A stretch of DNA of 64,000 bases from Branchiostoma floridae (taxonomy: Eukaryota; Chordata; Leptocardii; Amphioxiformes; Branchiostomatidae). The stretch is from NCBI RefSeq assembly GCF_000003815.2, contig NC_049979.1, positions 30,818,386-30,882,385 on the forward strand, read 5' to 3'. Within the stretch, counting starts at the first letter, position 1; each line of letters opens with the position of its first letter. Made by a program: the position numbers and the translations under genes. Under the pieces are notes generated by a model. It ran no database searches, was not told the DNA's origin, and saw only the letters and a list, made by a program, of their open reading frames with translations. Shown here piece by piece: positions 2,021 to 63,708 of this stretch.

Positions 2021-2110
2021 CTACGGCACGTCGTTGAAGAGTTATAGGACTTAGAAGTAGAGGGCCTCAACCCCCCCCCCCCCCCCTCCAGGGATGACCA
2101 AAAAAACCCG
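2021..2110 (-). mobile_element. Truncated MITE end at the outer edge of arm 1
   Basis: This is the reverse complement of the first ~90 bases of the TTAACCCTATTCAGAC family, ending in a long C run and then GGTCTGAATATGGTC, where the TTAA has decayed. It abuts the right end of the previous MITE without a spacer. Homology between the two arms of the large inverted repeat starts inside this fragment, near 2040. Confidence 0.6.
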
Positions 2111-2149
2111 GTCTGAATATGGTCAAAAGTGTTATGTTTGGATAACCTT

Positions 2150-4392
2150 TTTTTTTTCGAAAACTGTGTGTTTGTCAAAACCGAAGTAAAATGTTAAGTT
2201 TGGAGAAACTCCTGTGATTGTTTAAAGTCATGACTGTAAGATGTAAAGTTGAAGGTTTGTAGAAAATCTTGTTTTTTAAGAGACTGTGTATTTGTAATAG
2301 AAGTGTCTCTGAAGTGAAGTGTTTGAAGAAAATCCTGTTTCTTTTTCTCGGAACATGTGTGTTTGTAAAAGCCATGACTGTAAGATAAAAAAAATGTAAG
2401 ATTCGAAGAAAACCCTTTTTTTGTTTCTTTGTAAAAGACGTGTCTAAAAGAAAAAAAATTGTTCTCTCTTAAAACCTGTGTGTTTGTAAGAGCCGTGTCT
2501 GTGAGATGTAAAATGTAAGGTTTGAAGAAATTCCCCCTTTTTCCTTACGTAACCTGTGTATTTTTAAAAGCCGTCAGTAAGGCGTTAAGTTAAAGGTTTG
2601 GTAAAAATTCTCCTTTTTTTCCCGGAAGCTGTGTGTTTGTAAAAGCCATGTCTGTAAAATGTAAAGTGCATGGTTTAGAGAAAATTCTTTGTTTTTTTCT
2701 CAAACCATGTGTGTTTGTAAAAGCCGCGTCTGTAAAGTTTAAAGTTAGAAAAAATCTTTCTTTCTTGTAGCCGGTGTGTTTGCAATAGCCGGTGTGTTTG
2801 AAATAGCCGTGTATGTAAGATGTAAGGTGCAATGTTTCGAGAAATTCCTCTTTTTTTCTTCTTTCGGAACCTGTGATTAGTAAAAGCCGTGACTTGGAAC
2901 CTATGTGTTTGTAATAGCTGTGTCAGTAAGATGTAAATTGTAAGGTTTGCATAGAATTCATAGAATTTTTTTTCTCGGAACCTGTTTGTTTGTAAAAGCC
3001 GTTGCTGTTAGATAAAAAGTGTAAGGTTCAGTGAAAATTATATGTTCTCTCTCAGATCCTGTGTGTTTGTAATAGCCGTGTCTGTAAGATGTAAAGAGTA
3101 AGGTTCGAAGTAAATTCTCTTTTTTGCTCCTTCGGAATCTGTTTGTAAAAGCCGTGTCATTAAGATGAAAAATGTAACGTTAGGAGAAAATCCTCCGTTT
3201 CTATCTCGGAACCTGTTTGTTTTTAATAACCTTGACTGTAAGATAGAAAGTGTATTGTTTGGAGGAAATCCTCTGTTTTTCTCATGGAACCTATGTGTTT
3301 GCATTAGCTGTGTCTGAAAGATAGAAAGTGTAGGGTTTCGAGAAAATCCTCTGTTCTTTTTTCAGAACCTGTGTGTTTGTAATATCCGTGTCTGTAAGAT
3401 GTTAAGTGTAAGGTTTGGAGAAAATCATCTGTTCTATTTTCTCGCAACCTGTGTGTAAGTCAAATGTAAAGTGTGAGGTTTTGGAGAAAGCTCTTCAATC
3501 TTCTTTCAGAACCTGTGTATTTGTATAAGCCATGTCTGTAAGATGTGAGGTTTGGAGAAAATCCTCTGTTTTATTTTTTTGCAACCTGTGTGTATGTCAG
3601 ATGTAAATTGTAAGGTTTTGGAGAAAGCCCTTCTAATTTTCTTTCAGAACCTGTGTGTTTGTAAAAGCCGTGACTGTAAAATGTAAAATGTAAAATGTAA
3701 GGTCTGGGTCAACTCCTTTTTATCTTCGAACTTGTGATTTTGTAATAGCCGTGTCTGTAAGATTTAAAAGTGCCATGTTTGGATAAAATTCTTTGTTTTT
3801 TTGCCAAATTGTGTGATTTTGTAAAATCCCTGTCTGTAAGATGTGAAGTGTGAGGTTGTTTCTTCTCTTGAAACATGTGTCCTTGTTATAGCAGTGTCAG
3901 AAAGAGAAAAAGTGTAAGGTTTCGGAAAAATTGTCCGTTTTTTAACTTGCAGTTTGTAATAGCCGTGACTGTAAGATAAAAAAGAGATAATGTGTAAATA
4001 AAATCCTCCTTTATTGTGGGAAAATCCGTGTTTGTAAGATTTAAAAGTGCAATGATTGAAAAAAAATCCTTCGTTATTTTTTCGGAACCTGTGTGTACGT
4101 ATGCGAAAGATGCGTCTGTGATATGTAAAGTTTGGAAAAATTCCCCTTTTTCTTCTCCCGGAACCTGTGTATTTGTGAAAAGGGTGACTTAAGGGCGTTA
4201 AGTGTAAGGTTTTAAGAAAATCATCTGTTTTTCTCTTGGAACCTGTGTGTTTGTAATAGCGGTGTCTGTATGATGTGAAGTGTAGGGTTTAACGATAATC
4301 CTCGTTGTTTTTTTTCTTCTCAGAACCTGTGTGTTTGCAAAAGCCGTGTCTGCAAATGTTAAGTGTAGGGTTCAAAGAAAACCCTCCGAAAA
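2150..4392. repeat. Satellite array, ~76-bp degenerate units
   Basis: About 28 to 30 head-to-tail units of roughly 75-80 bp fill this region. Each has a core resembling CCTGTGTGTTTGTAAAAGCC, then TGTCTGTAAGATGTAAAG, then GGTTTGGAGAAAATCCTC and a T-rich block. Units differ by substitutions and small indels, so the array is not freshly amplified. Short open frames here are repeat artefacts. The mirrored array lies at about 61358-63605. Confidence 0.85.
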
Positions 4393-4394
4393 CA

Positions 4395-4625
4395 AAAGTG
4401 TTAGTTGTTAAATTTTCTGTGATATATATATGTATTACGGTAGTTCCCTGTTTCGGAAAATCAATTAATAACGTTACATTTACGTTATATTACTTCATGA
4501 TGATATCAAAATTATCAGGGATCATAAAACTTTATTACCCCCTGCAACCGTACTTATTGTACATAAAGGCGTTTTGAACTTTTTGAAAGGGAATGACATA
4601 AAAGCCCAGTCTGGTAAGGTTTAAA
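4395..4625 (-). mobile_element. Decayed MITE 5' half next to the satellite
   Basis: Read on the minus strand this begins TTTAAACCTTACCAGACTGG, a decayed form of the TTAACCCTATCCAGACTGGG end at 14749. It continues with matching internal sequence: the TTTTATAATT-like block, the ATATCATTATGACGT-like block and GGGAA-TTCCC-like sequence. The other half of the element is missing; the satellite array starts where it should be. Confidence 0.6.
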
Positions 4626-5822
4626 TAGAAGCACGGCCAATTAAGGGGCTTAATCTCCATATTTTAACATCCAGTAGTCTTTAAACTTTTTGTCTATCAT
4701 CTTAAATGTCTGATAGTCACTCAAGTGCTCTCGTTACCTTAGTGACCCTACTGTTAGCAAGACATTGTGTCCGGCGCCCATCAGACAAGCAGTTATGGCG
4801 TCGACATTTAATGTTAACCTACCTCCAACCTCTTAAACTCAACTTCTTATATTCTCTACATTCCAAAATTAGAAAACTGACAAAATTCTTTTGCATAACC
4901 CTAAATGTCTGATAGTAATTTGAATTTATTTCAAGCTACCGTTTGTAAGAAAGGGTGACGGAAGTTGGCTATGCTGGCGAAATGATTTACGGGACACCAT
5001 ATTAGAAGCGGATCCGTACCTGGATTTCAAAAAGGATTACTGTAAAAAAGATACATGAGATAACTTTGCGAAAAGTCGGGTGTACATTTGTTTTCCCAAA
5101 CAATCATCTATCAGAAAATAACACTGGCTTCTAATGGAATGCCACTTGTATTCAATTACCTGGCGAAAGCAATGAAGACATCGAAGTGCGCTTTTGATAT
5201 TTTGATGTTCAATAAGAGTATCAAAAGTGTTTCTATTTGGTACAAATCTCTATGATCTGGAGTAAATCTATAATTATTTAATGTAATCAGACAAAAGTTA
5301 CACTTCGATGTAATCAATGTCAGAAACACTTTAGAATTAGCATTCATAATTTAGGTCACTCAATAAATCTTCTTTGTCACGGGTAAAAGGACTTTTCCCT
5401 ACTTGTCGTATCTGAAAATTCCTCTGTACTCCTAGTTGCAAAGGACTATGACGAACATTTTGTTACGCTGTCCTGATTCGTTACTACTTTTAAAACCAGG
5501 CACCTTTGACCTCTTGCTAGCGTCACGCCTCCTCTAACTATACATGGTAACTACTCTGGGCCAGATCAAGATACGAAAGACTAGAGGAACGGTCAAACGC
5601 TTGTTTGTAAGTACTTATAATTGTTTAAAGATATAGTGAGTAAAGAAGATATGGTATTGATAATTTGGAATTTGAAGGATTTCGCCAACAGAAATAACCT
5701 TTAAATATAATTTCCCATTCGTCTTCTTAGCAATATTCTAGCGATACATGTTACCAATTAATGGCAATACAAGGTCCCTAAATAATTTTTCATATGTATT
5801 GTTGCAGCAGAGGAAGACGAAA
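4626..5822. other. Upstream region of the sulfotransferase gene
   Basis: No coding exon is recognisable. An acceptor-like GTTGCAG just before 5807 suggests that a 5' untranslated exon lies somewhere upstream and splices in there. I could not locate it or a promoter. Confidence 0.35.
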
Positions 5823-5982
5823 ATGAAGAGGAAGACGAAAATGACTACAGTCGGACTGTTTCAACATTTCTTTAAAGCATTGTTGGCGTTCATCTCCGTG
5901 CTAATTATTATCTACATTTATCTATATCATGAGCATGGAACATTGAAAGCTTCTTTTCAAGCGGAAGTTAAAAATGAAGAAG
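5823..5982 (+). CDS. Sulfotransferase exon 1 (signal anchor)
   Basis: Begins at an ATG and encodes a short basic tail (MKRKTK), then the hydrophobic stretch LLAFISVLIIIYIYL, as expected for a type II Golgi protein. A second ATG six codons later (5841) could also be used. The exon ends GAAGAAG before GTAAAG, leaving one base of a codon. Confidence 0.8.
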
Positions 5983-8900
5983 GTAAAGTTGCCGTACTAA
6001 AAATTGTTTAGTGGGGGTAAGGTCTTGCTACCGTCCAAAGAAACTACTTTCAGCGTTAGCTTCTTGGAGGGACATTGATTGACGAGAACCGCTGGGCTAA
6101 TATTTTGCCTGCTTTGGTCGAACCGACGTCCTTTTTTTGTATGACAGAGCTAAAATTTAGCTAATAAAATATCAAATCTTATTTCTATTCTCTGAAAGAT
6201 TATGATGAAGAGGACGTGGACAGATTGGTGGAAGCGGAACAGCAAAGAAGGAAGTCCTTACTTGCCAAATACTGTCAGAGTAATTTTTCGTCAAGTGCGG
6301 TCAGTAATCTCTTGAATTACAAAGTTAATAGCTCAATTTATCTTATTATAACCATATACATCGATAATATTTCAACTGGACCTGTCATCGTAATTCTATG
6401 TTCACGTTGCTAAAAATGATAACATATTGCAAAGAAAAAAGTTCCAAACAATAAAGTCATTTTGCTAACACAAACAAACCATTGTTTGAGACATTATCTA
6501 TGTTTACCATCCTCAAATATGAAACATTTACATCTTACCCAAAACAAATGTGAATGATTTTAAGAACCTTTTCTGATCTTCGTCGAAATAATCTAGCCAA
6601 AAAATTGAAATTGATAACACCATAATTAATCATGTTACGTCGTCCTTGCGACAGATTTCTTAACATCTACAGACTACATCATTCTTTAAAATTTTGCTGG
6701 TCATATGATGATTCATTTTAGAGTTACAGGAGTCAAAAATGGCGGGACATCTAGTTGCTTTGCGTCTAAAGATCACTATGGTACTGACATTTAAAATCCG
6801 ATTTTAAAACAGTCAATATATCTGCTCGTCAATTTAATGAAGCTTTTCTATTAAGATAAAAGATGGCTAAAATGGCATTCTTTTAAACTGTAAATGTAAC
6901 AATCGGCTTGACAAAGATGTGCAAGCTATTGCTGATGTTTCAAAATCCGATGCCCCTTTCCATTCTTTTTCAGAAATCCCTGAATACATTTTACTTCGTC
7001 GTGAGGGAGAATAGAAAAATCATATATTGTCGGACTGGAAAAACAGGAAGCACTACAACATCGGCTTTGTTATATAATCTGGAACATGGTTATAATATGA
7101 CAGCGAAGGAATTGAAGATAAACAAGGGCTCTATCACTTCAAGACTATTAAGCACGTACAATAAGGAAGAGATAGACCATCGTGTATCGTCCTATTACAG
7201 CATTGTCGTTACGAGGAACCCAATAGAAAGGTAAGAATCCGTTTAATATGAGCTGTTCTAAACTTGCTTATATTTATCATCCGTAACAGCGACAGTGGAA
7301 CATATACCAACTGTCTATTTCCCTTTCGTCCATATTACGTTAAATTTGTATTGAATTCTGTTCTTTACCCTATTCTAAATTTACCTCGGGGTATGTAAAG
7401 GCACACCAGTAGGAAGGTAGATATGATGATGTGTAGAGAGGTATAAACGGGTCCCACTAAAAACCGAGAACTACCAAAAACTACCAAAACAAGAGTTCGT
7501 AGACCTCATATCTCTATGAAATAGTCTGATAATGTAAATGTCTTCCACATTTGCATATCTATGATTACTTATATACACCTCTAAAAACTACGCTGGTCAC
7601 TATTTTGATTGTCCAATCATATACCACATCGATGAATTATGGTACTCTGGCATTAATTATGCATATAAGGGACTTAATTGCATAATTGGTATCTGATAAT
7701 TTCCCACCTGCCACATACTACATATATTGCATGTATTTGAGTTCTTCAAAGGAAATACCGCGAATACAGATTTTCCTAATTGGATATGCAAATTAACTGT
7801 CAGTTTGCATAAGTTGCACTTCTTGATGTGAATCTCTGTCTACGCTACCAACACACCAAATATCATGTAAAATTGTCATTCCCTTCTTCAGTTATCGTCC
7901 TTAGAAGATTTTGACAAAAATGCCCCTGCAATTACAGAGCATCCTGCCAGGGGGACCAAATATACACCACATATCCCTTATGTCACAAGTAATCTGCCAC
8001 AAAAAAAATTAAGACCATAGCAGATCCAGTTCAAAAGATTAAAAAACAATGAATTTCTGCTGCAGTACCAAGGTCACAAACCAGGGGGTCAAAAATTGAC
8101 CTTGACCTTCGTCTTCGCAACACCTACTCACAAACCAAATATCATTGAAATCCATTAAGAGGTTATTGAGCTATGCTCACTCCAAAAATCTGGACACACA
8201 GACAGACAGAAACACACACACACACACACACAAAACCATATCTCAATTCTTCATTAAGATAATAACAACCGAAAACAACTTTCACTAATTACCGAAAATA
8301 ACCGAAAACAATTTTAACTAAATACCGAAAACAACTTGAAACTACGAAAAACAACCAAAAACAAGAGTTCGGAGACCTCATATCTCCATTAAATAGTCTG
8401 ATTATGTTAATGACTTGCACATTTGCATCATTTATGCTTAGTTATTTAAAACTGAAAATAACCTACGCTGTTCACTATGTTAATTGTTCAATCATTTACC
8501 ACATCGATAAATTATGGCACTTTTGCATTGATTATGCAAATTGAGGACTTATTTGCATAATTGGTATCTGATAATGTTCCACCTGCCACAAACTACATAT
8601 ATATTTGCGCATGTATTTGCGTTCTATAAAAGAAACACTGCAAATACAGATCTTCCTCATAAGATACGCAAATTAAGTGTTAATTTGCATAATAAGCACT
8701 TCACGCTGTACATCTAAGTCTAAGCTACCTACATACCAATTATCATGTAAAATTGTCATTCCCATCTTCAGTTATCCAACTTAAGAAGATTTTGACAAAA
8801 ATGCCCATGCAGTTCTAGAGCAACCTGCTAGAGGGGCCAAATAGACACCACATATCCCTTACGTCACAAGCTATCTGCCATCCAAATATCAAGACCATAA

Positions 8901-11900
8901 CACATCCAGTTCAAAAGATCCAAAAAAGGATATCCTGCTGCAGTACCAAGGTCACATACCAGGTGGCCCAAAATTGACCTTAACCTTTTTCTTCCCAACA
9001 CCAACCTACAAACCAATTATCATCGTAATCAATCCAGATTTTCATGAGTTATACTCACTACAAAAGTTCGGATACACAGACAGACACACACACAGGCAGA
9101 CACATAGACACACCAAAAACTATATCTCCATTTTTCCAGGAGATAACAACTCGACTCAACCATAAACAACTGATAATTATTGCAATAGGCTATTATTTAG
9201 TATTTCTTTTATTTGATTTTGGACAGGAGTCGGGCTGGGGCGGATTAATTTGTTTGACGACATACGTTATCAATATAATATTAGTAAGAATATTGTCAAC
9301 AATCTCCTTTGCCTGTTCGAATATATTAATGTTCAAATTCAAATTCACGGATTCTGTTATGAATGGGGACTGCTTGATCATCTAGCAAATTTTTAATGGA
9401 TATCCATATCAATGCTTGCAGATAGATGTGCAAAAGTTAGGTGTGACGGGTCGTTCAGTGTAATATAATCAGCTGCTGCCGCGCCGCGTGCCTGCGAAGC
9501 TGGTGTGTTACGCCGAACTCCGGTTATACCGGCTATATAGATACAGATACAGATATACTAGTTGTCATCAATTGTGTATCACCAAGCAGAGGTTACGGTG
9601 GGGGCGGGGTGTAGTAGTGGCCACAACAAAGAATCGCAGTCACGACGAAAACTCTGCTAGGAAACTAAGTTTGCTTATTAATTACTGCTAGCAAATTCTA
9701 CTGCCTATTTAGCCAATATGTACTACTTTTTTTTTCTAGCGACCAAAACAATCCAGTTTATTTGAGAAATGAGGCAAAGAGGGACGCCAAAGCAACTGGA
9801 CTAGCATCAGACTGGGCTGTATACCGGAAGCTCAGAAACAGAGTGGTATCAGTCTGTCGCAGGGCAAAGGTTCAGTTTTACAGGGACACATTTGAAGAAT
9901 GTAGTGGGAACCCGAAAAAGACATGGAATACCATCAACTCCCTTCTTGGAAGGAAACATACTGTAAGTCCAGCCTGTGTGCAAGAAGGCGGAAAGCTTCT
10001 CAGCAAACCCCGGGACATAGCAGAGCATTTCGCAAAGTTCTATGACACCAAGGTTGCCAACCTTCGCTCTGGTATGAGCAACACAGCCGGTGATGAAACA
10101 TACGCAAACCTCGGGCAGGAGGCCTTCGTGTTAAAGTCAGTCACAGTAAGGGACGTGCACAAGATTCTGTCAAGACTTCCGGATGGTAAAACCCCAGGAT
10201 GCGACGGAATAGACAACAAACTCCTGAGGATTTCTTCAGACATTATAGCAGAACCACTGACTTACATAATCAATTTGTCTTTTGCAACAGGAACTTTCCC
10301 AGCAAAATGGAAGCATGCCAAGGTGATACCGCTTCTGAAAGACAGCAGTAAACCACTGTCCGGACAAAACTCTCGCCCTGTAAGTCTCCTTCCAACTTGT
10401 GGCAAGGTATGCGAGATTGTTGCCAGTGAACAGATCGTCTCATACTTCTCCCGTTCAGGTCATCAATCAGAAGCACAACACGCGTACCGTAAACTCCACT
10501 CTACAGAAACAGTCCTTCTGAAGATGACAGATGAGTGGCTGGACAGTATGGACAAAGGACTTATGACCTCGGTAGTGTTGCTGGACTACAGTGCGGCGTT
10601 TGACTTAGTAGACCACTTTCATCTTCAGAAGAAACTCGAAATGTACGGTTTCTCAGAGGAAGCGTTGTCTTGGATCATGTCATACTTGTCAAACCGCAAG
10701 TGGCAGGTCTATGCAAACGGGGCATACAGTCAGAGCCGAGTGTTGCAATGCGGGGTGCCGCAGGGAAGTTGTTTGGGACCACAACTGTACAGCATTTACG
10801 TCAATGACATGTCCAGTACAGTAGAGAATGGGGAACTGGACCAGTATGCTGACGACAGTACAGTACATGCAGCAGGACGCACTGTACAGGACATAAGAAC
10901 AAAGACTCTGGTGGATTTAGAATGTGTGGCTAAATGGTCGGACCACAACATGCTTAAACTGAACAACGGCAAGACAAAGACCATGCTGGTTGGGACGTCT
11001 AAGAAGACAAGAGTCGCACCTCCACTACAGTTGGAACTCAGGGGGCAGAGTTTACAACAAGTACCCACTGTCAAGCTTTTGGGAGTACATGTCGACCAAA
11101 ACCTCACATTCGACAATCACGTAGACCATGTTGTAAAGAACTGTAATAGAAGCATGGCGCAAGTGAACAGGGTGAGGAAATTACTTCCGCGCAGACTGAG
11201 GATAAAACTGATTCAGGCCCTTGTACTAACACATCTAGACTACTGCAGTTCGGTGTGGGCAAGTACGTCTAAGAAGAACATAAACCGGCTACAGGTCGTG
11301 CAGAACAGAGCGGCCAGGATCGCCCTTGGTTGCCACAGGTACACAAGCAGGGACGCTTTGCTGCAGACGCTAGGATGGCTGTCCGTGAAAGACAGAATCC
11401 AGCAGAAAAGCGTAGTGACTTTTCGTAAGATAATGCAAAACAAACAACCAGTCTCTCTGTATAAACAGGTCAAAATGCAGTCCCATGGATATCAAACACG
11501 CTCATCAAAATCCCAAACTATCAGACTACCAAAGCCCAGAACAAATGCTCAAAAGAAAAGGTTCTTGTACAGAATGTCCAGCACATGGAATGGTTTGCAA
11601 TAGATAATTGGTCCCATTGTATATATATATAAGCTCAGGTAGTCATTAAGTTATCTTTTATCAAGTGTGAATTTTATGTACATTGTATAGATTGTATGTC
11701 TTCCTGTGTGTCAGGTTTTTTTTTGTCCTGTTATGTTTAATAATTGTTGATAAAGACCACAGGAAGAGTAGCTTCAATGTACTCCATTGTTATGCTAATT
11801 GTGGATCTTAATAAAGTCAAAGTCAAAGTCAAAGTCATTTCTTGCTCAAATATAACGGATTTCCGCTGCCACAACAACTCGGTTTAAATGGACAAACCAC

Positions 11901-14900
11901 AAACGTGTATTACCACAGAGACCCCACATTTTGGATTAAACTAAATGATCAAAAAGGATTCTGCTATACGCCATAGAACAGTGTGTAATGGAAAGGTGTT
12001 TCCACAGGCTACACCCCATCTGCTGGAAGAATACTTCATTCAGAATCAACCCCATTCTCTCCCTCGGCCGTGGAGAAATTCAAGGGATAGTAACTAGTAG
12101 ATTAAAGAAATAGAAATAAGCACTTTTCAAGTTGTTCTACGTTGTTTTCTAGTGCTGACCGGTTGTCCATGCTTGTTTTGACATGTTTTCGGCGGTTTTG
12201 AGTTGTTTCCGGTATTTGTTAGAGTTTCTTTTTTTTGTGAGACCGCTATACATGAGAAACCATACCAGGGTGTTTCATTCCTAAAAGCTCATTCAAGGAT
12301 GGAGCTGTACTAAATTTATTTAAACATCCATTCGTTGCTTCTCTTCTTAAAACCCCGGTAACAAACAGTCGAACATGGCCTCGCTACTTCACCATTCACT
12401 TTTCATTCGGCCATGAACGGCGGGTCTGTGAAGAGTTGGCTGGTGGTCGCCTCTGGTGTCTGAGAGTGAGTCACCAGTTAAAATTAAATCTTGATCCTGT
12501 ATTAGTCACTGGTAGCTTGCTCCCAACTTATTGAAAATCTACCAATGACTCACACAAAGACCTTTAGACAAAACTCTGCTAACTCATTCGAACCAAAACC
12601 AGAAGGTGGGCGAATTACCAACCGCCCTAACGAGACTGTCGCTCTTTCTGGTAGCTCCCAATCCAAGGTAATCTGGGGCTTTGTATACCATAGTGAGGGC
12701 GTTTATATAATCATGTGCAAAAAAGCTACGATTGACGTGATTCAACACTTTTAAGAAGTCTATTATTAAAGTATCGGTTTGTTTGCCGCTTTTTAGGTTT
12801 GTTGTCGATTCTTCAACAAAGTCCAGGAGTTGTGTTATCTCTTTATCACCATTATCTAAAATATCGTTTAGGATAGCGTGGGATTCAAAATGCTGCATGG
12901 TAGACGTAACCACTATGAGTATAGTAACTTTACAGGCTACGCATGTCAACGAAGCTGGCCTGTAATTGATCAGGTTGTGTAGCTCCTTTTTTGTAAATGG
13001 GAATAATGAACGCGCATGATTGAAACTGAAAACCCATATACCGACCGAGATCTTGTGTGAAAACATGTTTTAAATTGTACTGTGGTGGGTTTTACGTTTG
13101 CAGCAACTATCTTTGTCAGTTCTCTTTCTCTAGAAACGTCCTCTCTAGTGGGAGAAAATACTTGTTTGTTTTTTCTTCAAAACTTGAAATGTCAGTTCTG
13201 TATCTGTATCTATATAGCCGGTATATCCGCCCTTCGGCGTAACACACCAGTTAATATACAAATAACTTGTTGTCGTCTTCTGTTGTTCCATTCTTCCATG
13301 TTATTGTCCCCGTGACTGTGCCCAGATGGGTAGAGATTCACTACATAGAGTAGTTTGTTTATGACGTTGGGATCATGGTTGAAGTTAATTTATGTGCTTG
13401 CACCCTGACATAACTTTTTAGGGAAGGGATGTTTTCTGTGCTTTTCCCCTTCCCCTAAGGTTTAAGGAGTATCAATGTTTTATAAGGTAGATAGTTGTAC
13501 ACGACTTAGAACTTATTAAGGTATATGGAATTCCACCAAAATATTACCCAGGAATTTAAAAAAAGACATCCACGTCCCTTTGATCTACGTGTCATTTTAT
13601 GTTGTATATTTTTAGGCTTGCATCGGCGTGGATAAGCAGATTTCTGTATAATCACCACCTTCGATACAACGATCGATACGGAAGCATGCTTCAAACTGTC
13701 TCTAACACTTCCAACACAGAGGTGTGTATGCCGATTTTAGTGACATGTTTGGTCAATTTATCATATAAAGGTCAACTCGGTAGCCCTGCCGACGTAGAAG
13801 CACGTGGCATCATGGGCAATATTGCTTTTAGATCCTCCTAGAAGATTTGGGTCCGAAGATCCAGATTCCTTTTAGCAAAAGAAGCTACAACTGTGCAAAG
13901 CGTGCAGCAGCAGGACATGACCAAAAGCAGTTATAGAGAAGTTGGACGTCTGCCCAGCAAAATATCTGTGTGCGATAACAGAGCTTCAATGGCCAAAGAA
14001 CATGATAACGAATGACATTCTACANNNNNNNNNNNNNNNNNNNNNNNNNNNNNNNNNNNNNNNNNNNNNNNNNNNNNNNNNNNNNNNNNNNNNNNNNNNN
14101 NNNNNNNNNNNNNNNNNNNNNNNNTTTGCAAACGTTGAGCAATCGATTTGGTCTATGTTTTTAACACATCATCAGCATGCCACAAGACATAGCCTTATTA
14201 AATCTAATTGTGGATCTAAGTAAACTCAACTCAACTCAACATCCGCCGGCTTTCTGGAACTTGACGGAGAATAGCCCTTAGTCAGGGGAAATGGGTTTTT
14301 CATATATGGATAATGTTTGTAACTGTCATTATCCCATAATGCCAGTATTTTTGGTTGCTATAGATTGCCATGTGTGTGTTGCCATGTGGTGATTGACAGC
14401 AACGCATCTCTTATCAGTCCTTGATCTCAGCCTGTGTCGCTTGTGCTGGAGGTGCGAACAGTCAGCTATATGTGAACAAAACGTCTTTCTGAATGTCAAC
14501 TTTCTGTTACACAAAGGAATGAATAAGAAATCGCTATACATAGAATAGCATAGATGTGCCTGCGGGAGAACTTCTGATGGGACAATGGGGCAATGCAGGA
14601 GAGACATATCACGGTTCTGAGAAGTGTGGTTTTCAGAAAGATTGTTTTCCGGTAGTTGTCTGACCATGTATATCATAGATATGTGCTCTATGCCACATAA
14701 AATCTCACCACTGGGCAAAAAAATAAGTCCAGAATCAGCTTCTGCCCTTTAACCCTATCCAGACTGGGCTTTTTGGGCTTCCCCTGGCCGGGGGCGGGGG
14801 GCTGGGCTCATTCGACCCCCCCCCTTCGTATTTTCAAAACGGCTTACTGTAAGATCACCAAATTTTGCAGGGAAGGCTGTGCTCATCGAGTTTTATAATT

Positions 14901-19570: not shown

Positions 19571-19574
19571 AAGT

Positions 19575-44317: not shown

Positions 44318-44429
44318 GTTATCCTGGAAAGTCTATGCATGGTCCTGTGGGGTCAAAATTGACCGCAGTATTTTCTTAAACAAACTTTTGAGACCCACAC
44401 CTAAACAACTCATCGTATGATCACGGAAT

Positions 44430-46560: not shown

Positions 46561-46869
46561 AAACAAAACAACTATCTCAATTTAAACGGGAAGATTTAAA
46601 CTATCTAAAATTGCGAATTTAATCTTATTTTGAATACATTTTCCTTGTGAGAACATTTTCTTTATTTTGAAATTTTTTACGGTTTGCAAATAATAGGCCT
46701 TTTGTAACCCGATACTCTGTCGAACTCGCATAGCAACGGGAAAGAATACCCTAGCAACCGACTGTCGTGTTAAACTTGGTTTACTTACCTTTCTAATCAT
46801 CATACTCAGTGGCAACAAACACGGCAAACTTATGAATAATAAGATTTGCATAACATCCGTGGCATCTTA

Positions 46870-49958: not shown

Positions 49959-50214
49959 CTAAGGCTGCGATAACTTTAATACTTCTTCTTCATAGGAATA
50001 TCCGAACATCTCAAAGTCAGCTTTAAACTTTCTTGCAACTCTTCTCAAATCTTCTAATGGAATTAATGCGAAGAGGTTCCGAAAGTTTTTTCTCTGCTCC
50101 TCTTTTTTTTGTCTGTGGCAGTATGTCATCCCGATTTGTGACTCCCACTTTCCGGAGAAAGAGACGCAGGTCATCAGCTAGCGTCTCTGTGTGTGCTATG
50201 TAGTCATAGTGAAT
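49959..50214 (-). pseudogene. Frameshifted sulfotransferase exon 6 (arm 2)
   Basis: Starts with the same IHYDYIAHTETLADDLRL after a TTTTTCTAG acceptor. The sequence GAAAAAACTTTCGG here replaces GAAAAAACTTCGG in arm 1. The downstream codons (NLFALIPLEDLRRV and so on) remain intact in the shifted frame. Confidence 0.85.
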
Positions 50215-51267: not shown

Positions 51268-51968
51268 NNNNNNNNNNNNNNNNNNNNNNNNNNNNNNNNN
51301 NNNNNNNNNNNNNNNNNNNNNNNNNNNNNNNNNNNNNNNNNNNNNNNNNNNNNNNNNNNNNNNNNNNNNNNNNNNNNNNNNNNNNNNNNNNNNNNNNNNN
51401 NNNNNNNNNNNNNNNNNNNNNNNNNNNNNNNNNNNNNNNNNNNNNNNNNNNNNNNNNNNNNNNNNNNNNNNNNNNNNNNNNNNNNNNNNNNNNNNNNNNN
51501 NNNNNNNNNNNNNNNNNNNNNNNNNNNNNNNNNNNNNNNNNNNNNNNNNNNNNNNNNNNNNNNNNNNNNNNNNNNNNNNNNNNNNNNNNNNNNNNNNNNN
51601 NNNNNNNNNNNNNNNNNNNNNNNNNNNNNNNNNNNNNNNNNNNNNNNNNNNNNNNNNNNNNNNNNNNNNNNNNNNNNNNNNNNNNNNNNNNNNNNNNNNN
51701 NNNNNNNNNNNNNNNNNNNNNNNNNNNNNNNNNNNNNNNNNNNNNNNNNNNNNNNNNNNNNNNNNNNNNNNNNNNNNNNNNNNNNNNNNNNNNNNNNNNN
51801 NNNNNNNNNNNNNNNNNNNNNNNNNNNNNNNNNNNNNNNNNNNNNNNNNNNNNNNNNNNNNNNNNNNNNNNNNNNNNNNNNNNNNNNNNNNNNNNNNNNN
51901 NNNNNNNNNNNNNNNNNNNNNNNNNNNNNNNNNNNNNNNNNNNNNNNNNNNNNNNNNNNNNNNNNNNN
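51268..51968. other. Assembly gap (701 N) covering sulfotransferase exon 5
   Basis: The flanks match arm 1 at about 17046 and 15260, which are roughly 1.79 kb apart. About 1.1 kb is therefore unaccounted for if the gap length is right; more likely the estimate is wrong. Exon 5 and half a MITE should be inside. Confidence 0.85.
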
Positions 51969-52476
51969 TTTCATCACTACTTGATATTTTCTTGCAGAAA
52001 ACATTCATTTGAACGTTTTTAATCCATTTTCAAGGGTTTTTAGAGTTTTATGTTGAAAAAAATGTATCTTGAAAAATGTAAGGTTGATAATCCAAGATGG
52101 CGGATAGCTAAACTACAGATGACGTCATTCTATGACGTCATTTTGACGTCGTTGCGTCGGCTTTTGACAACAGAAGTATAATAACACTTAAATGAGAAAC
52201 CTTTATTGGTAACTTTTTGAGTGAGATTTTTAGGTATTATGGGAATTCCCCGTTTTAGCCAAAAATATGAATTAATGACGTCATAATTACGTCATATTAC
52301 GTCATAATGATATAGATATTTCAGGAAATATAAAACTCGATGAGCACAGCCTTCCCTGCAAAATTTGGTGATCTTACAGTAAGCCGTTTTGAAAATACGA
52401 AGGGGGGGGTCGAATGAGCCCAGCCCCCCGCCCCCGGCCAGGGAAGGCCCAAAAAGCCCAGTCTGGATAGGGTTAA
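51969..52476 (-). mobile_element. piggyBac-like MITE, partial (arm 2 copy of 14749-15679)
   Basis: The left half of the arm 1 element, ending in CAGTCTGGATAGGGTTAA; the rest lies in the preceding gap. Confidence 0.7.
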
Positions 52477-53980
52477 AGGGCAGAAGCTGATTCTGGAATT
52501 ATTTTCTTGCCCAGTGGTGAGATTTTATGTGGCATAGAGCACATATCTATGATATACATGGTCAGACAACTACCGGAAAACAATCTTTCTGAAAACCACA
52601 CTTCTCAGAACCGTGATATGTCTCTCCTGCATTGCCCCATTGTCCCATCAGAAGTTCTCCCGCAGGCACATCTATGCTATTCTATGTATAGCGATTTCTT
52701 ATTCATTCCTTTGTGTAACAGAAAGTTAACAATCAGAAAGACGTTTTGTTCACATATAGCTGACTGTTCGCACCTCCAGCACAAGCGACACAGGCTGAGA
52801 TCAAGGACTGATAAGAGATGCGTTGCTGTCAATCACCACATGGCAACACACACATGGCAATCTATAGCAACCAAAAATACTGGCATTATGGGATAATGAC
52901 AGTTACAAACATTATCCATATATGAAAAACCCATTTCCCCTGACTAAGGGCTATTCTCCGTCAAGTTCCAGAAAGCCGGCGGATGTTGAGTTGAGTTGAG
53001 TTTACTTAGATCCACAATTAGATTTAATAAGGCTATGTCTTGTGGCATGCTGATGATGTGTTAAAAACATAGACCAAATCGATTGCTCAACGTTTGCAAA
53101 GAGGGGGGGGGGGTTTACAGGTTTTGTGTAGAATGTCATTCGTTATCATGTTTCTTGGCCATTGAAGCTCTGTTATCGCACACAGATATTTTTGCTGGCA
53201 GACGTCCAACTTCTCTATAACTGCTTTTGGTCATGTCCTGCTGCTGCACGCTTTGCACAGTTGTAGCTTCTTTTGCTAAAAGGAATCTGGATCTTCGGAC
53301 CCAAATCTTCTAGGAGGATCTAAAAGCAATATTGCCCATGATGCCACGTGCTTCTACGTCGGCAGGGCTACCGAGTTGACCTTTATATGATAAATTGACC
53401 AAACATGTCACTAAAATCGGCATACACACCTCTGTGTTGGAAGTGTTAGAGACAGTTTGAAGCATGCTTCCGTATCGATCGTTGTATCGAAGGTGGTGAT
53501 TATACAGAAATCTGCTTATCCACGCCGATGCAAGCCTAAAAATATACAACATAAAATGACACGTAGATCAAAGGGACGTGGATGTCTTTTTTTAAATTCC
53601 TGGGTAATATTTTGGTGGAATTCCATATACCTTAATAAGTTCTAAGTCGTGTACAACTATCTACCTTATAAAACATTGATACTCCTTAAACCTTAGGGGA
53701 AGGGGAAAAGCACAGAAAACATCCCTTCCCTAAAAAGTTATGTCAGGGTGCAAGCACATAAATTAACTTCAACCATGATCCCAACGTCATAAACAAACTA
53801 CTCTATGTAGTGAATCTCTACCCATCTGGGCACAGTCACGGGGACAATAACATGGAAGAATGGAACAACAGAAGACGACAACAAGTTATTTGTATATTAA
53901 CTGGTGTGTTACGCCGAAGGGCGGATATACCGGCTATATAGATACAGATACAGAACTGACATTTCAAGTTTTGAAGAAAA

Positions 53981-54838
53981 AACAAACAAGTATTTTCTCC
54001 CACTAGAGAGGACGTTTCTAGAGAAAGAGAACTGACAAAGATAGTTGCTGCAAACGTAAAACCCACCACAGTACAATTTAAAACATGTTTTCACACAAGA
54101 TCTCGGTCGGTATATGGGTTTTCAGTTTCAATCATGCGCGTTCATTATTCCCATTTACAAAAAAGGAGCTACACAACCTGATCAATTACAGGCCAGCTTC
54201 GTTGACATGCGTAGCCTGTAAAGTTACTATACTCATAGTGGTTACGTCTACCATGCAGCATTTTGAATCCNNNNNNNNNNNNNNNNNNNNNNNNNNNNNN
54301 NNNNNNNNNNNNNNNNNNNNNNNNNNNNNNNNNNNNNNNNNNNNNNNNNNNNNNNNNNNNNNNNNNNNNNNNNNNNNNNNNNNNNNNNNNNNNNNNNNNN
54401 NNNNNNNNNNNNNNNNNNNNNNNNNNNNNNNNNNNNNNNNNNNNNNNNNNNNNNNNNNNNNNNNNNNNNNNNNNNNNNNNNNNNNNNNNNNNNNNNNNNN
54501 NNNNNNNNNNNNNNNNNNNNNNNNNNNNNNNNNNNNNNNNNNNNNNNNAACAAACAAGTATTTTCTCCCACTAGAGAGGACGTTTCTAGAGAAAGAGAAC
54601 TGACAAAGATAGTTGCTGCAAACGTAAAACCCACCACAGTACAATTTAAAACATGTTTTCACACAAGATCTCGGTCGGTATATGGGTTTTCAGTTTCAAT
54701 CATGCGCGTTCATTATTCCCATTTACAAAAAAGGAGCTACACAACCTGATCAATTACAGGCCAGCTTCGTTGACATGCGTAGCCTGTAAAGTTACTATAC
54801 TCATAGTGGTTACGTCTACCATGCAGCATTTTGAATCC
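53981..54838. other. Unmerged contig overlap flanking a 278-N gap
   Basis: Bases 53981-54270 are repeated without visible difference at 54549-54838, on either side of the N run, and arm 1 has this sequence once. A contig ending in the same 290 bases with which the next begins is the signature of a failed merge, not of a biological duplication. Confidence 0.85.
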
Positions 54839-55135
54839 CACGCTATCCTAAACGATATTTTAGATAATGGTGATAAAGAGATAACACAACTCCTGGACTT
54901 TGTTGAAGAATCGACAACAAACCTAAAAAGCGGCAAACAAACCGATACTTTAATAATAGACTTCTTAAAAGTGTTGAATCACGTCAATCGTAGCTTTTTT
55001 GCACATGATTATATAAACGCCCTCACTATGGTATACAAAGCCCCAGATTACCTTGGATTGGGAGCTACCAGAAAGAGCGACAGTCTCGTTAGGGCGGTTG
55101 GTAATTCGCCCACCTTCTGGTTTTGGTTCGAATGA
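54653..55135 (+). pseudogene. LINE reverse transcriptase relic (arm 2 copy)
   Basis: Same 160-codon frame as 12584-13066, with NYRPASLTCVACKV and GKQTDTLIIDFLKVLNHVN. A truncated duplicate at 54085 is produced by the contig overlap. Confidence 0.65.
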
Positions 55136-55749
55136 GTTAGCAGAGTTTTGTCTAAAGGTCTTTGTGTGAGTCATTGGTAGATTTTCAATAAGTTGGGAGC
55201 AAGCTACCAGTGACTAATACAGGATCAAGATTTAATTTTAACTGGTGACTCACTCTCAGACACCAGAGGCGACCACCAGCCAACTCTTCACAGACCCGCC
55301 GTTCATGGCCGAATGAAAAGTGAATGGTGAAGTAGCGAGGCCATGTTCGACTGTTTGTTACCGGGGTTTTAAGAAGAGAAGCAACGAATGGATGTTTAAA
55401 TAAATTTAGTACAGCTCCATCCTTGAATGAGCTTTTAGGAATGAAACACCCTGGTATGGTTTCTCATGTATAGCGGTCTCACAAAAAAAAAAAGAAACTC
55501 TAACAAATACCGGAAACAACTCAAAACCGCCGAAAACATGTCAAAACAAGCATGGACAACCGGTCAGCACTAGAAAACAACGTAGAACAACTTGAAAAGT
55601 GCTTATTTCTATTTCTTTAATCTACTAGTTACTATCCCTTGAATTAATTTCTCCACGGCCGAGGGAGAGAATGGGGTTGATTCTGAATGAAGTATTCTTC
55701 CAGCAGATGGGGTGTAGCCTGAGGAAACACCTTTCCATTACACACTGTT

Positions 55750-55909
55750 TTATGGCGTATAGCAGAATCCTTTTTGATCATTTAGTTTAATCCAAAATGT
55801 GGGGTCTCTGTGGTAATACACGTTTGTGGTTTGTCCATTTAAACCGAGTTGTTGTGGCAGCGGAAATCCGTTATATTTGAGCAAGAAATAAACTGGATTG
55901 TTTTGGTCG
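55750..55909 (-). CDS. Exon-like open segment, uninterrupted in arm 2
   Basis: Follows a pyrimidine tract and CTAG on the minus strand. Encodes DQNNPVYFLLKYNGFPLPQQ, LGLNGQTTNVYYHRDPTFWI and KLNDQKGFCYTP, then a stop: 52 residues plus one leading base. It has the look of a last exon, but I cannot assign a family and found no partner exon nearby. The same site is disrupted by the LINE in arm 1. Confidence 0.4.
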
Positions 55910-56479
55910 CTAGAAAAAAAAAAGTAGTACATATTGGCTAAATAGGCAGTAGAATTTGCTAGCAGTAATTAATAAGCAAACTTAGTTTCCTAGCAGAGTT
56001 TTCGTCGTGACTGCGATTCTTTGTTGTGGCCACTACTACACCCCGCCCCCACCGTAACCTCTGCTTGGTGATACACAATTGATGACAACTAGTATATCTG
56101 TATCTGTATCTATATAGCCGGTATAACCGCCGTTCGGCGTAACACACCAGCTTCGCAGGCACGCGGCGCGGCAGCAGCTGATTATATTACACTGAACTAC
56201 CCGTCACACCTAACTTTTGCACATCTATCTGCAAGCATTGATATGGATATCCATTAAAAATTTGCTAGATGATCAAGCAGTCCCCATTCATAACAGAATC
56301 CGTGAATTTGAATTTGAACATTAATATATTCGAACAGGCAAAGGAGATTGTTGACAATATTCTTACTAATATTATATTGATAACGTATGTCGTCAAACAA
56401 ATTAATCCGCCCCAGCCCGACTCCTGTCCAAAATCAAATAAAAGAAATACTAAATAATAGCCTATTGCAATAATTATCA

Positions 56480-58290
56480 GTTGTTTATGGTTGAGTCGAG
56501 TTGTTATCTCCTGGAAAAATGGAGATATAGTTTTTGGTGTGTCTATGTGTCTGCCTGTGTGTGTGTCTGTCTGTGTATCCGAACTTTTGTAGTGAGTATA
56601 ACTCATGAAAATCTGGATTGATTACGATGATAATTGGTTTGTAGGTTGGTGTTTGGAAGAAAAAGGTTAAGGTCAATTTTGGGCCACCTGGTATGTGACC
56701 TTGGTACTGCAGCAGGATANNNNNNNNNNNNNNNNNNNNNNNNNNNNNNNNNNNNNNNNNNNNNNNNNNNNNNNNNNNNNNNNNNNNNNNNNNNNNNNNN
56801 NNNNNNNNNNNNNNNNNNNCTTTTGAACTGGATGTGTTATGGTCTTGATATTTGGATGGCAGATAGCTTGTGACGTAAGGGATATGTGGTGTCTATTTGG
56901 CCCCTCTAGCAGGTTGCTCTAGAACTGCATGGGCATTTTTGTCAAAATCTTCTTAAGTTGGATAACTGAAGATGGGAATGACAATTTTACATGATAATTG
57001 GTATGTAGGTAGCTTAGACTTAGATGTACAGCGTGAAGTGCTTATTATGCAAATTAACACTTAATTTGCGTATCTTATGAGGAAGATCTGTATTTGCAGT
57101 GTTTCTTTTATAGAACGCAAATACATGCGCAAATATATATGTAGTTTGTGGCAGGTGGAACATTATCAGATACCAATTATGCAAATAAGTCCTCAATTTG
57201 CATAATCAATGCAAAAGTGCCATAATTTATCGATGTGGTAAATGATTGAACAATTAACATAGTGAACAGCGTAGGTTATTTTCAGTTTTAAATAACTAAG
57301 CATAAATGATGCAAATGTGCAAGTCATTAACATAATCAGACTATTTAATGGAGATATGAGGTCTCCGAACTCTTGTTTTTGGTTGTTTTTCGTAGTTTCA
57401 AGTTGTTTTCGGTATTTAGTTAAAATTGTTTTCTGTTATTTTCGGTAATTAGTGAAAGTTGTTTTCGGTTGTTATTATCTTAATGAAGAATTGAGATATG
57501 GTTTTGTGTGTGTGTGTGTGTTTCTGTCTGTCTGTGTGTCCAGATTTTTGGAGTGAGCATAGCTCAATAACCTCTTAATGGATTTCAATGATATTTGGTT
57601 TGTGAGTAGGTGTTGCGAAGACGAAGGTCAAGGTCAATTTTTGACCCCCTGGTTTGTGACCTTGGTACTGCAGCAGAAATTCATTGTTTTTTTTATCTTT
57701 TGAACTGGATCTGCTATGGTCTTAATTTTTTTTGTGGCAGATTACTTGTGACATAAGGGATATGTGGTGTATATTTGGTCCCCCTGGCAGGATGCTCTGT
57801 AATTGCAGGGGCATTTTTGTCAAAATCTTCTAAGGACGATAACTGAAGAAGGGAATGACAATTTTACATGATATTTGGTGTGTTGGTAGCGTAGACAGAG
57901 ATTCACATCAAGAAGTGCAACTTATGCAAACTGACAGTTAATTTGCATATCCAATTAGGAAAATCTGTATTCGCGGTATTTCCTTTGAAGAACTCAAATA
58001 CATGCAATATATGTAGTATGTGGCAGGTGGGAAATTATCAGATACCAATTATGCAATTAAGTCCCTTATATGCATAATTAATGCCAGAGTACCATAATTC
58101 ATCGATGTCGTATATGATTGGACAATCAAAATAGTGACCAGCGTAGTTTTTTAGAGGTGTATATAAGTAATCATAGATATGCAAATGTGGAAGACATTTA
58201 CATTATCAGACTATTTCATAGAGATATGAGGTCTACGAACTCTTGTTTTGGTAGTTTTTGGTAGTTCTCGGTTTTTAGTGGGACCCGTTT
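56480..58290. repeat. Two tandem ~840-bp repeat copies (arm 2)
   Basis: Mirror of 7480-9165, with a 100-N gap at 56720-56819 that arm 1 shows to be only about 14 bases (a T-rich stretch). Confidence 0.75.
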
Positions 58291-61119
58291 ATACCTCTCT
58301 ACACATCATCATATCTACCTTCCTACTGGTGTGCCTTTACATACCCCGAGGTAAATTTAGAATAGGGTAAAGAACAGAATTCAATACAAATTTAACGTAA
58401 TATGGACGAAAGGGAAATAGACAGTTGGTATATGTTCCACTGTCGCTGTTACGGATGATAAATATAAGCAACTTTTAGCAAGTTTAGAACAGCTCATATT
58501 AAACGGATTCTTACCTTTCTATTGGGTTCCTCGTAACGACAATGCTGTAATAGGACGATACACGATGGTCTATCTCTTCCTTATTGTACGTGCTTAATAG
58601 TCTTGAAGTGATAGAGCCCTTGTTTATCTTCAATTCCTTCGCTGTCATATTATAACCATGTTCCAGATTATATAACAAAGCCGATGTTGTAGTGCTTCCT
58701 GTTTTTCCAGTCCGACAATATATGATTTTTCTATTTTCACTCACGACGAAGTAAAATGTATTCAGGGATTTCTGAAAAAGAATGGAAAGGGGCATCGGAT
58801 TTTGAAACATCAGCAATAGCTTGCACATCTTTGTCAAGCCGATTGTTACATTTACAGTTTAAAAGAATGCCATTTTAGCCATCTTTTATCTTAATAGAAA
58901 AGCTTCATTAAATTGACGAGCAGATATATTGACTGTTTTAAAATCGGATTTTAAATGTCAGTACCATAGTGATCTTTAGACGCAAAGCAACTAGATGTCC
59001 CGCCATTTTTGACTCCTGTAACTCTAAAATGAATCATCATATGACCAGCAAAATTTTAAAGAATGATGTAGTCTGTAGATGTTAAGAAATCTGTCGCAAG
59101 GACGACGTAACATGATTAATTATGGTGTTATCAATTTCAATTTTTTGGCTAGATTATTTCGACGAAGATCAGAAAAGGTTCTTAAAATCATTCACATTTG
59201 TTTTGGGTAAGATGTAAATGTTTCATATTTGAGGATGGTAAACATAGATAATGTCTCAAACAATGGTTTGTTTGTGTTAGCAAAATGACTTTATTGAATG
59301 GAACTTTTTTCTTTGCAATATGTTATCATTTTTAGCAACGTGAACATAGAATTACGATGACAGGTCCAGTTGAAATATTATCGATGTATATGGTTGTAAT
59401 AAGATAAATTGAGCTATTAACTTTGTAATTCAAGAGATTACTGACCGCACTTGACGAAAAATTACTCTGACAGTATTTGGCAAGTAAGGACTTCCTTCTT
59501 TGCTGTTCCGCTTCCACCAATCTGTCCACGTCCTCTTCATCATAATCTTTCAGAGAATAGAAATAAGATTTGATATTTTATTAGCTAAATTTTAGCTCTG
59601 TCATACAAAAAAAGGACGTCGGTTCGACCAAAGCAGGCAAAATATTAGCCCAGCGGTTCTCGTCAATCAATGTCCCTCCAAGAAGCTAACGCTGAAAGTA
59701 GTTTCTTTGGACGGTAGCAAGACCTTACCCCCACTAAACAATTTTTAGTACGGCAACTTTACCTTCTTCATTTTTAACTTCCGCTTGAAAAGAAGCTTTC
59801 AATGTTCCATGCTCATGATAAAGATAAATGTAGATAATAATTAGCACGGAGATGAACGCCAACAATGCTTTAAAGAAATGTTGAAACAGTCCGACTGTAG
59901 TCATTTTCGTCTTCCTCTTCATTTTCGTCTTCCTCTGCTGCAACAATACATATGAAAAATTATTTAGGGACCTTGTATTGCCATTAATTGGTAACATGTA
60001 TCGCTAGAATATTGCTAAGAAGACAAATGGGAAATTATATTTAAAGGTTATTTCTGTTGGCGAAATCCTTCAAATTCCAAATTATCAATACCATATCTTC
60101 TTTACTCACTATATCTTTAAACAATTATAAGTACTTACAAACAAGCGTTTGACCGTTCCTCTAGTCTTTCGTATCTTGATCTGGCCCAGAGTAGTTACCA
60201 TGTATAGTTAGAGGAGGCGTGACGCTAGCAAGAGGTCAAAGGTGCCTGGTTTTAAAAGTAGTAACGAATCAGGACAGCGTAACAAAATGTTCGTCATAGT
60301 CCTTTGCAACTAGGAGTACAGAGGAATTTTCAGATACGACAAGTAGGGAAAAGTCCTTTTACCCGTGACAAAGAAGATTTATTGAGTGACCTAAATTATG
60401 AATGCTAATTCTAAAGTGTTTCTGACATTAATTACATCGAAGTGTAACTTTTGTCTGATTACATTAAATAATTATAGATTTACTCCAGATCATAGAGATT
60501 TGTACCAAATAGAAACACTTTTGATACTCTTATTGAACATCAAGATATCAAAAGCGCACTTCGATGTCTTCATTGCTTTCGCCAGGTAATTGAATACAAG
60601 TGGCATTCCATTAGAAGCCAGTGTTATTTTCTGATAGATGATTGTTTGGGAAAACAAATGTACCCCCGACTTTTCGCAAAGTTATCTCATGTATCTTTTT
60701 TACAGTAATCCTTTTTGAAATCCAGGTACGGATCCGCTTCTAATATGGTGTGCCGGAAATCATTTCGCCAGCATAGCCAACTTCCGTCACCCTTTCTTAC
60801 AAACGGTAGCTTGAAATAAATTCAAATTACTATCAGACATTTAGGGTTATGCAAAAGAATTTTGTCAGTTTTCTAATTTTGGAATGTGGAGAATATAAGA
60901 AGTTGAGTTTAAGAGGTTGGAGGTAGGTTAACATTAAATGTCGACGCCATAACTGCTTGTCTGATGGGCGCCGGACACAATGTCTTGCTAACAGTAGGGT
61001 CACTAAGGTAACGAGAGCACTTGAGTGACTATCAGACATTTAAGATGATACACAAAAAGTTTAAAGACTAGTGGATGTTAAAATATGGAGATTAAGCCCC
61101 TTAATTGGCCGTGCTTCTA

Positions 61120-61355
61120 TTTAAACCTTACCAGACTGGGCTTTTATGTCATTCCCTTTCAAAAAGTTCAAAACGCCTTTATGTACAATAAGTACGATTG
61201 CAGGGGGTAATAAAGTTTTATGATCCCTGATAATTTTGATATCATCATGAAGTAATATAACGTAAATGTAACGTTATTAATTGATTTTCCGAAACAGGGA
61301 ACTACCGTAATACATATATATATCACAGAAAATTTAACAACTAACACTTTTGTTT
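61120..61355 (+). mobile_element. Decayed MITE half (arm 2 copy)
   Basis: Begins TTAAACCTTACCAGACTGGG; mirror of 4395-4625, again directly abutting the satellite. Confidence 0.55.
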
Positions 61356-61357
61356 TC

Positions 61358-63605
61358 GGAGGGTTTTCTTTGAACCCTACACTTAACATTTGCAGACACG
61401 GCTTTTGCAAACACACAGGTTCTGAGAAGAAAAAAAACAACGAGGATTATCGTTAAACCCTACACTTCACATCATACAGACACCGCTATTACAAACACAC
61501 AGGTTCCAAGAGAAAAACAGATGATTTTCTTAAAACCTTACACTTAACGCCCTTAAGTCACCCTTTTCACAAATACACAGGTTCCGGGAGAAGAAAAAGG
61601 GGAATTTTTCCAAACTTTACATATCACAGACGCATCTTTCGCATACGTACACACAGGTTCCGAAAAAATAACGAAGGATTTTTTTTCAATCATTGCACTT
61701 TTAAATCTTACAAACACGGATTTTCCCACAATAAAGGAGGATTTTATTTACACATTATCTCTTTTTATCTTACAGTCACGGCTATTACAAACTGCAAGTT
61801 AAAAAACGGACAATTTTTCCGAAACCTTACACTTTTTCTCTTTCTGACACTGCTATAAGAAGGACACATGTTTCAAGAGAAGAAACAACCTCACACTTCA
61901 CATCTTACAGACAGGGATTTTACAAAATCACACAATTTGGCAAAAAAAACAAAGAATTTTGTCCAAACATGGCACTTTTAAATCTTACAGACACGGCTAT
62001 TACAAAATCACAAGTTCGAAGATAAAAAGGAGTTGACCCAGACCTTACATTTTACATTTTACATTTTACAGTCACGGCTTTTACAAACACACAGGTTCTG
62101 AAAGAAAATTAGAAGGGCTTTCTCCAAAACCTTACAATTTACATCTGACATACACACAGGTTGCAAAAAAATAAAACAGAGGATTTTCTCCAAACCTCAC
62201 ATCTTACAGACATGGCTTATACAAATACACAGGTTCTGAAAGAAGATTGAAGAGCTTTATCCAAAACCTCACACTTTACATTTGACTTACACACAGGTTG
62301 CGAGAAAATAGAACAGATGATTTTCTACAAACCTTACACTTAACATCTTACAGACACGGATATTACAAACACACATGTTCTGAAAAAAGAACAGAGGATT
62401 TTCTCGAAACCCTACACTTTCTATCTTTCAGACACAGCTAATGCAAACACATAGGTTCCATCAGAAAAACAGAGGATTTCCTCCAAACAATACACTTTCT
62501 ATCTTACAGTCAAGGTTATTAAAAACAAACAGGTTCCGAGATAGAAACGGAGGATTTTCTCCTAACGTTACATTTTTCATCTTAATGACACGGCTTTTAC
62601 AAACAGATTCCGAAGGAGCAAAAAAAGAGAATTTACTTCAAACCTTACTCTTTACATCTTACAGACACGGCTATTACAAACACACAGGATCTGAGAGAGA
62701 ACAGATAATTTTCACTGAACCTTACACTTTTCATCTAACAGCAACGGCTTTTACAAACAAACAGGTTCCGAGAAAAAAAATTCTATGAATTCTATGCAAA
62801 CCTTACAATTTACATCTTACTGACACAGCTATTACAAACACATAGGTTCCAAGTCACGGCTTTTACTAATCACAGGTTCCGAAAGAAGAAAAAAAGAGGA
62901 ATTTCTCGAAACATTGCACCTTACATCTTACATACGAGGCTATTTCAAACACACCGGCTATTGCAAACACACCGGCTACAAGAAAGAAAGATTTTTTTTT
63001 CTAACTTTAAACTTTACAGACACGGCTTTTACAAACACACATGGTTTGAGAAAAAAACAAAGAATTTTCTCTAAACCATGCACTTTACATTTTACAGACA
63101 TGGCTTTTACAAACACACAGCTTCCGGGAAAAAAAGGAGAATTTTTACCAAACCTTTAACTTAACGCCTTACTGACGGCTTTTAAAAATACACAGGTTAC
63201 GTAAGGAAAAAGGGGGAATTTCTTCAAACCTTACATTTTACATCTCACAGACACGGCTCTTACAAACACACAGGTTCTAAGAGAGAACAATTTTTTTTCT
63301 TTTAGACACGTCTTTTACAAAGAAACAAAAAAAGGGTTTTCTTCGAATCTTACATTTTTTTTATCTTACAGTCATGGCTTTTACAAACACACATGTTCCG
63401 AGAAAAAGAAACAGGATTTTCTTCAAACACTTCACTTCAGAGACACTTCTATTACAAATACACAGTCTCTTAAAAAACAAGATTTTCTACAAACCTTCAA
63501 CTTTACATCTTACAGTCATGACTTTAAACAATCACAGGAGTTTCTCCAAACTTAACATTTTACTTCGGTTTTGACAAACACACAGTTTTCGAAAAAAAAA
63601 AGGTT
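61358..63605. repeat. Satellite array (arm 2)
   Basis: Reverse complement of 2150-4392 with the same unit order; scattered substitutions and single-base length changes in homopolymers. Confidence 0.85.
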
Positions 63606-63624
63606 ATCCAAACATAACACTTTT

Positions 63625-63708
63625 GACCATATTCAGACCGGGCTTTTTTGGTCATCCCTGGACGGGGGGGGGGGGGGTGAGGCCCTCTACTTCTAAGTCC
63701 TATAACTA
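63625..63708 (+). mobile_element. Truncated MITE end at the outer edge of arm 2
   Basis: GACCATATTCAGACCGGGCT followed by a run of G and TCCTATAACT. It stops at 63708, where homology to arm 1 stops, and is fused to a LINE. Confidence 0.65.

Follow-up and report, generated by a model that had tools for sequence, protein, structure and literature searches.

Does the large inverted repeat in this assembled DNA reflect a real palindrome, or is it the second haplotype of a single locus that was scaffolded in reverse? The question is raised by a stretch of 64,000 nucleotides (the window), in which a sequence-only reading had recognised two near-identical facing arms of about 23.8 and 21.6 kb separated by a 16-kb single-copy loop. 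Self-BLAST of the window confirmed the repeat, with arm 1 pairing inverted with arm 2 in eight blocks of mirror order (Table 1), each of 98.9-99.9% identity, and the arm lengths and coordinates proved correct; the single-copy loop measures 15.5 kb, a 100-N gap included, and a 731-N gap separates it from arm 2. Identity exceeds 99% in seven of the eight blocks, the remaining one reaching 98.9% with gaps counted, and the repeat is genuinely present in the sequence, far above chance expectation. The gap at the inner edge of arm 2 and the contig faults within that arm, both previously noted, are borne out as the 731 N, six contigs and an unmerged 290-bp overlap. In our judgement arm 2 is probably the other haplotype of the arm 1 locus, reversed during scaffolding.

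Compared base by base over 19,573 aligned columns, a total in which the 290 bp shared by two overlapping contigs of arm 2 are counted twice, the arms differ by 68 substitutions (0.35%; 30 transitions and 38 transversions) and by 25 insertions or deletions (indels) totalling 64 bases, 15 of them in homopolymers. Arm 1 positions 15258-17045, 20121-20314 and 22327-22769 lie opposite N gaps in arm 2 and fall outside the comparison. The differences are clumped, substitutions and indels together ranging from 0 to 11 per kb (mean 4.7, variance 9.8, 17 counting windows), and difference-free runs extend over 12237-13954 and, apart from the uncompared 20121-20314, over 19806-22177. Arm 2 is the longer at 18 of the 25 indels (P 0.043); with neighbouring indels merged the count is 15 of 22 (P 0.13), and for that reason the bias was discarded as evidence. 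The arms also differ in a segment of a long interspersed nuclear element (LINE) at 9764-11836, which is present in arm 1 only, and whose insertion site is uninterrupted in arm 2, inside one contig. The arms are therefore two distinct sequences, not a single one written twice. This LINE carries an open reading frame (ORF) for reverse transcriptase (9762-11603 in the mechanical ORF list; Pfam RVT_1, E 1.9e-24), ends 3′ in AAAGTC repeats, and is flanked on both sides by ATTT, a 4-bp, and hence short, target duplication that might be chance. Substitutions, indels and transposon presence or absence are all allele-like, and cannot by themselves tell alleles from recent paralogues.

Eight runs of N divide the window, leaving nine contigs. 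Arm 1 joins the loop contiguously, contig 14125-32506 passing 25880/25881 unbroken, and on the other side the inner edge of arm 2 at 42141 is a contig end adjoining the 731 N. No sequence within the window is continuous from the loop into arm 2, a gap that constitutes missing evidence, not disproof, and the reversed orientation of arm 2 depends on this single gapped join. Arm 2 contains five gaps (1,983 N), and arm 1 only one, of 100 N, which corresponds to 26 bp in arm 2. The ends facing each other across the 278-N gap at 54271-54548 are an identical 290 bp, so the flanking contigs overlap and were never merged, and the gap itself is not real. The other gaps of arm 2 set against the distance in arm 1 give 710 versus 443, 194 versus 194, 701 versus 1,788 and 100 versus 13; gap lengths are partly informative estimates, which are off by hundreds of bases or more if the arms are of equal length at these places. 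The mean distance to the nearest difference between the arms is 368 bp for the 11 contig ends of arm 2 and 213 bp for aligned positions drawn at random (one-sided P 0.035), the pattern that forking of the assembly graph between near-identical copies would produce.

At the outer edge the match of arm 2 ends at 63707, and its arm 1 counterpart, 2040, sits within a small interspersed repeat that has other copies at 1541 and 23703. Arm 1 looks undisturbed here, on short evidence, because it agrees with these copies for 18 bp more, at 16 and 14 of the 18 bases respectively, over which arm 2 agrees with arm 1 at 5. Past those bases arm 1 also departs from both copies, entering an opposite-oriented piece of the small repeat. 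In arm 2 the DNA beyond the edge, 63708-64000, has one open frame whose translation matches the reverse transcriptase ORFs at 9762 and 36752 (BLASTP, 32-34% identity, E 1.5e-10 and 1.4e-7); reverse transcriptases in PDB match the translation that begins at 63708 only at E 0.014 or worse, and a Pfam scan of the plus strand found no match for it. On its simplest reading the outer edge looks like a 5′-truncated LINE inserted in arm 2 only, in which case homology to 1-2039 may resume past the window. Homology is not demonstrated to end at either edge of arm 2.

Taken as a reversed second haplotype, arm 2 would be allelic to arm 1 at a single locus of an outbred animal, and the assembler would have separated the two because of their substitutions, their small indels and a LINE insertion, probably joined by a second one. 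Haplotype 2 would then persist as a chain of short contigs, and the scaffolder would attach it, reversed, to the distal end of the scaffold of haplotype 1 over the 731-N gap. We infer both the allelic status of the arms and the wrongness of the gapped join. Without new biology, this reading accounts for the contig anatomy and the undemonstrated boundaries, and likewise for differences such as alleles may show and for the LINE carried by one arm only. The sequence-only reading had left a choice between a reversed haplotype and a palindrome homogenised by gene conversion; the former is the better supported, because of the chain of short contigs, the unmerged overlap, the inner edge at a contig end, the transposon-like outer edge and the allele-like differences, and the latter is without specific support. 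False duplications are common in assemblies: in earlier ones of three vertebrates they made up 4-16% of the sequence and were mainly of haplotypes (PMC9516828). The heterotype false duplication described there resembles the present case in that two haplotypes of one locus stand separately in one assembly, accompanied here by gaps, an unmerged overlap and transposon presence or absence between the copies, and differs from it in that the copy here is reversed and lies beyond a unique loop. If the haplotype reading is true, the gene count is inflated here, the two sulfotransferase copies carried by the arms being alleles of a single gene, and the inversion is unfit for use as a structural feature. 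Read depth is the usual proof of a false duplication.

Several points weigh against a reversed haplotype. Reversing it past the 15.5-kb loop requires an additional mistake, and the loop contigs share no long homology that would make the join allelic (longest match 75 bp). Because gaps were sized by estimate (one of 194 N faces exactly 194 bp of arm 1), the 731-N join is probably backed by links of some kind. Forking and fragmentation would also arise from real near-identical duplication, the excess of gaps in arm 2 (five of the six arm gaps, P 0.22) is a weak test, and the case made for the outer edge is built on 18 bp, with the far end of that LINE outside the window. If the DNA were from amphioxus, a guess prompted by how its repeats look, then 0.35% between the arms would be low for alleles, given a heterozygosity of 3.2-4.2% (PMC12500494), and a palindrome would gain.

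Such a palindrome, a real large inverted duplication with a DM-domain gene in its single-copy spacer and with arms either young or gene-converted, we hold to be unlikely. The arms face each other in mirror order, are 21.6-23.8 kb long and have block identities of 98.9-99.9%, which is compatible in identity and length with mammalian sex-chromosome palindromes, for which PMC8981503 gives arm identity above 99% and, on the primate X, a median arm length of 37 kb; like them, the repeat as assembled consists of inverted arms more than 99% identical around a single-copy spacer. The long difference-free stretches between the arms, the clumped differences, the DM-domain ORF in the spacer and the estimated gap size of the 731-N join all point the same way, although clumping is equally expected between alleles. 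Unlike in those palindromes, the junction of arm 2 with the spacer is not contiguous but a contig end at a gap, and arm identity here is below the primate X median, 99.953% in the same paper; the outer edge, moreover, resembles a LINE insertion. Base composition, in which raised arm G+C would be one sign of gene conversion between the arms, is a further, weak point. The palindromes of PMC8981503 have arm G+C raised relative to their flanks and not significantly different from their spacers, whereas the arms here (0.370-0.375) are G+C-poorer than the loop (0.420; arm 1 against loop in 1-kb windows, P 0.026) and exceed the left flank of 2 kb (0.363) by little. Sex linkage of the present window is, besides, only hypothetical. 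It would be a long shot that a true palindrome, its arms of about 24 kb bearing duplicated sulfotransferase genes and its spacer a divergent Dmrt-like gene, makes this a candidate sex-linked region with the organisation of a mammalian X or Y palindrome; a palindrome around the DM-domain gene, if true, would make that candidate testable.

A near-identical paralogue would also produce most of the signals in the pattern of differences, and the join between loop and arm 2 is only a gap, no contiguous sequence of the window anchoring arm 2 here. Arm 2 might be a genuine paralogue of the locus, dispersed or tandem, misplaced here in reverse from elsewhere in the genome. This would require a recent duplication as well as a misjoin, and the outer flank breaks at reverse-transcriptase-coding DNA with no recognisable duplication boundary; we consider it very improbable. 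The usual heterozygosity of the species would be the best yardstick for the 0.35% difference between the arms, and a very heterozygous species would favour the palindrome.

Table 1. Coordinates of the inverted repeat, its contigs and the other features of the window
Feature	Position	Strand	Remarks
Arm 1	2040..25880	+	contig 1-14024, 100-N gap, contig 14125-32506
Arm 2	42141..63707	-	six contigs, last one extends beyond arm
Block 1 of inverted match	2040-8917/63707-56820		
Block 2 of inverted match	8931-9763/56719-55886		
Block 3 of inverted match	11837-13170/55889-54549		
Block 4 of inverted match	12881-14024/54270-53127		
Block 5 of inverted match	14125-15257/53100-51969		
Block 6 of inverted match	17046-20120/51267-48167		
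Block 7 of inverted match	20315-22326/47972-45962		
Block 8 of inverted match	22770-25880/45251-42141		
Arm 2 contigs	42141-45251, 45962-47972, 48167-51267, 51969-54270, 54549-56719, 56820-64000		
Gap, join placing arm 2 opposite arm 1	41410..42140	.	731 N
Contig overlap copy	53981..54270	+	290 bp, letter-for-letter same as 54549-54838
Contig overlap copy	54549..54838	+	partner of 53981-54270 beyond 278-N gap 54271-54548
LINE segment, arm 1 only	9764..11836	+	2,073 bp; empty site in arm 2 at 55886-55889
Reverse-transcriptase-coding DNA, putative LINE	63708..64000	+	BLASTP to reverse transcriptase ORFs; runs on past window
Single-copy loop	25881..41409	.	15.5 kb, including 100-N gap 32507-32606
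Dmrt-like ORF, 331 amino acids	29897..30892	+	DM DNA-binding domain, 18-bp tandem repeat, weak CUE-like C-terminus
Loop LINE	36752..40633	-	three long open frames: reverse transcriptase, endonuclease, ORF1-like
Part of Sulfotransfer_2 family gene, arm 1	6995..7230	+	E 4.2e-9; GT at 7231; arm 2 copy within 58464-58843
Likely last exon of Sulfotransfer_2 gene, arm 1	18079..18333	+	E 6.8e-6; AG before, stop at end

Both arms contain parts of the sulfotransferase gene, recognised in two pieces, the start of the first (6995) being that of the Pfam match and not a proven exon start; no middle exons were found. In the first piece arm 2 differs from arm 1 by one synonymous change and one R to S. The arm 2 copy of the last exon (within 49964-50253, on contig 48167-51267) has one extra base, at arm 1 position 18210, which shifts the frame and is either a mutation (a null allele) or an assembly error. 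These coding differences are too few for dating the two copies. The Pfam scans covered the window other than arm 2, 1-4399, 14125-14199, 40634-41409, whatever of the LINEs lies outside their listed ORFs and, at 63708-64000, the minus strand, and gave RVT_1, Exo_endo_phos, DM, Sulfotransfer_2 and Hexapep above the curated cut-offs, with DUF1388, Cytadhesin_P30, DUF1515, Fib_alpha, Exo_endo_phos_2, CUE, Cyto_heme_lyase and zf-RRPl_C4 below them. ARAGORN and Rfam (gathering threshold) gave no matches in the window. A DM domain, LINEs and a gene split by introns point to animal DNA.

Within the loop, the DM domain of the Dmrt-like ORF (residues 4-45) is divergent, with a Pfam E of 6.2e-14, and the ORF matches the DMRT1 chain 4yj0 in PDB at E 4.3e-8. 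Its 18-bp repeat comprises 12.4 copies, encoding APTSAR units, and it is with this repeat that the Hexapep match coincides; the CUE-like C-terminus (E 0.0034) is under the curated cut-off. The loop LINE is probably young, and its third frame, which we take to be ORF1, has Pfam matches below cut-off only. Comparison of the two loop contigs revealed no long homology, only three matches, of 75, 75 and 47 bp, one of them direct and the others inverted, and the idea that 32607-41409 is haplotype 2 running on from arm 2 was consequently dropped.

Repeats of other kinds are present in both arms and loop. Each arm has a degenerate minisatellite array, at 2200-4390 in arm 1 and 61350-63540 in arm 2, whose unit is about 78 bp long. 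The small interspersed repeat, presumably similar to a miniature inverted-repeat transposable element (MITE-like, our own label), occurs as diverged copies with an end like TAACCCTATTCAGACCGGG at 1541-2126, 14748-14866 and 23703-23890, with counterparts in arm 2. Arrays with a 16-bp unit lie in the loop at 26271-26349 and 26970-27071, in mutually opposite orientation.

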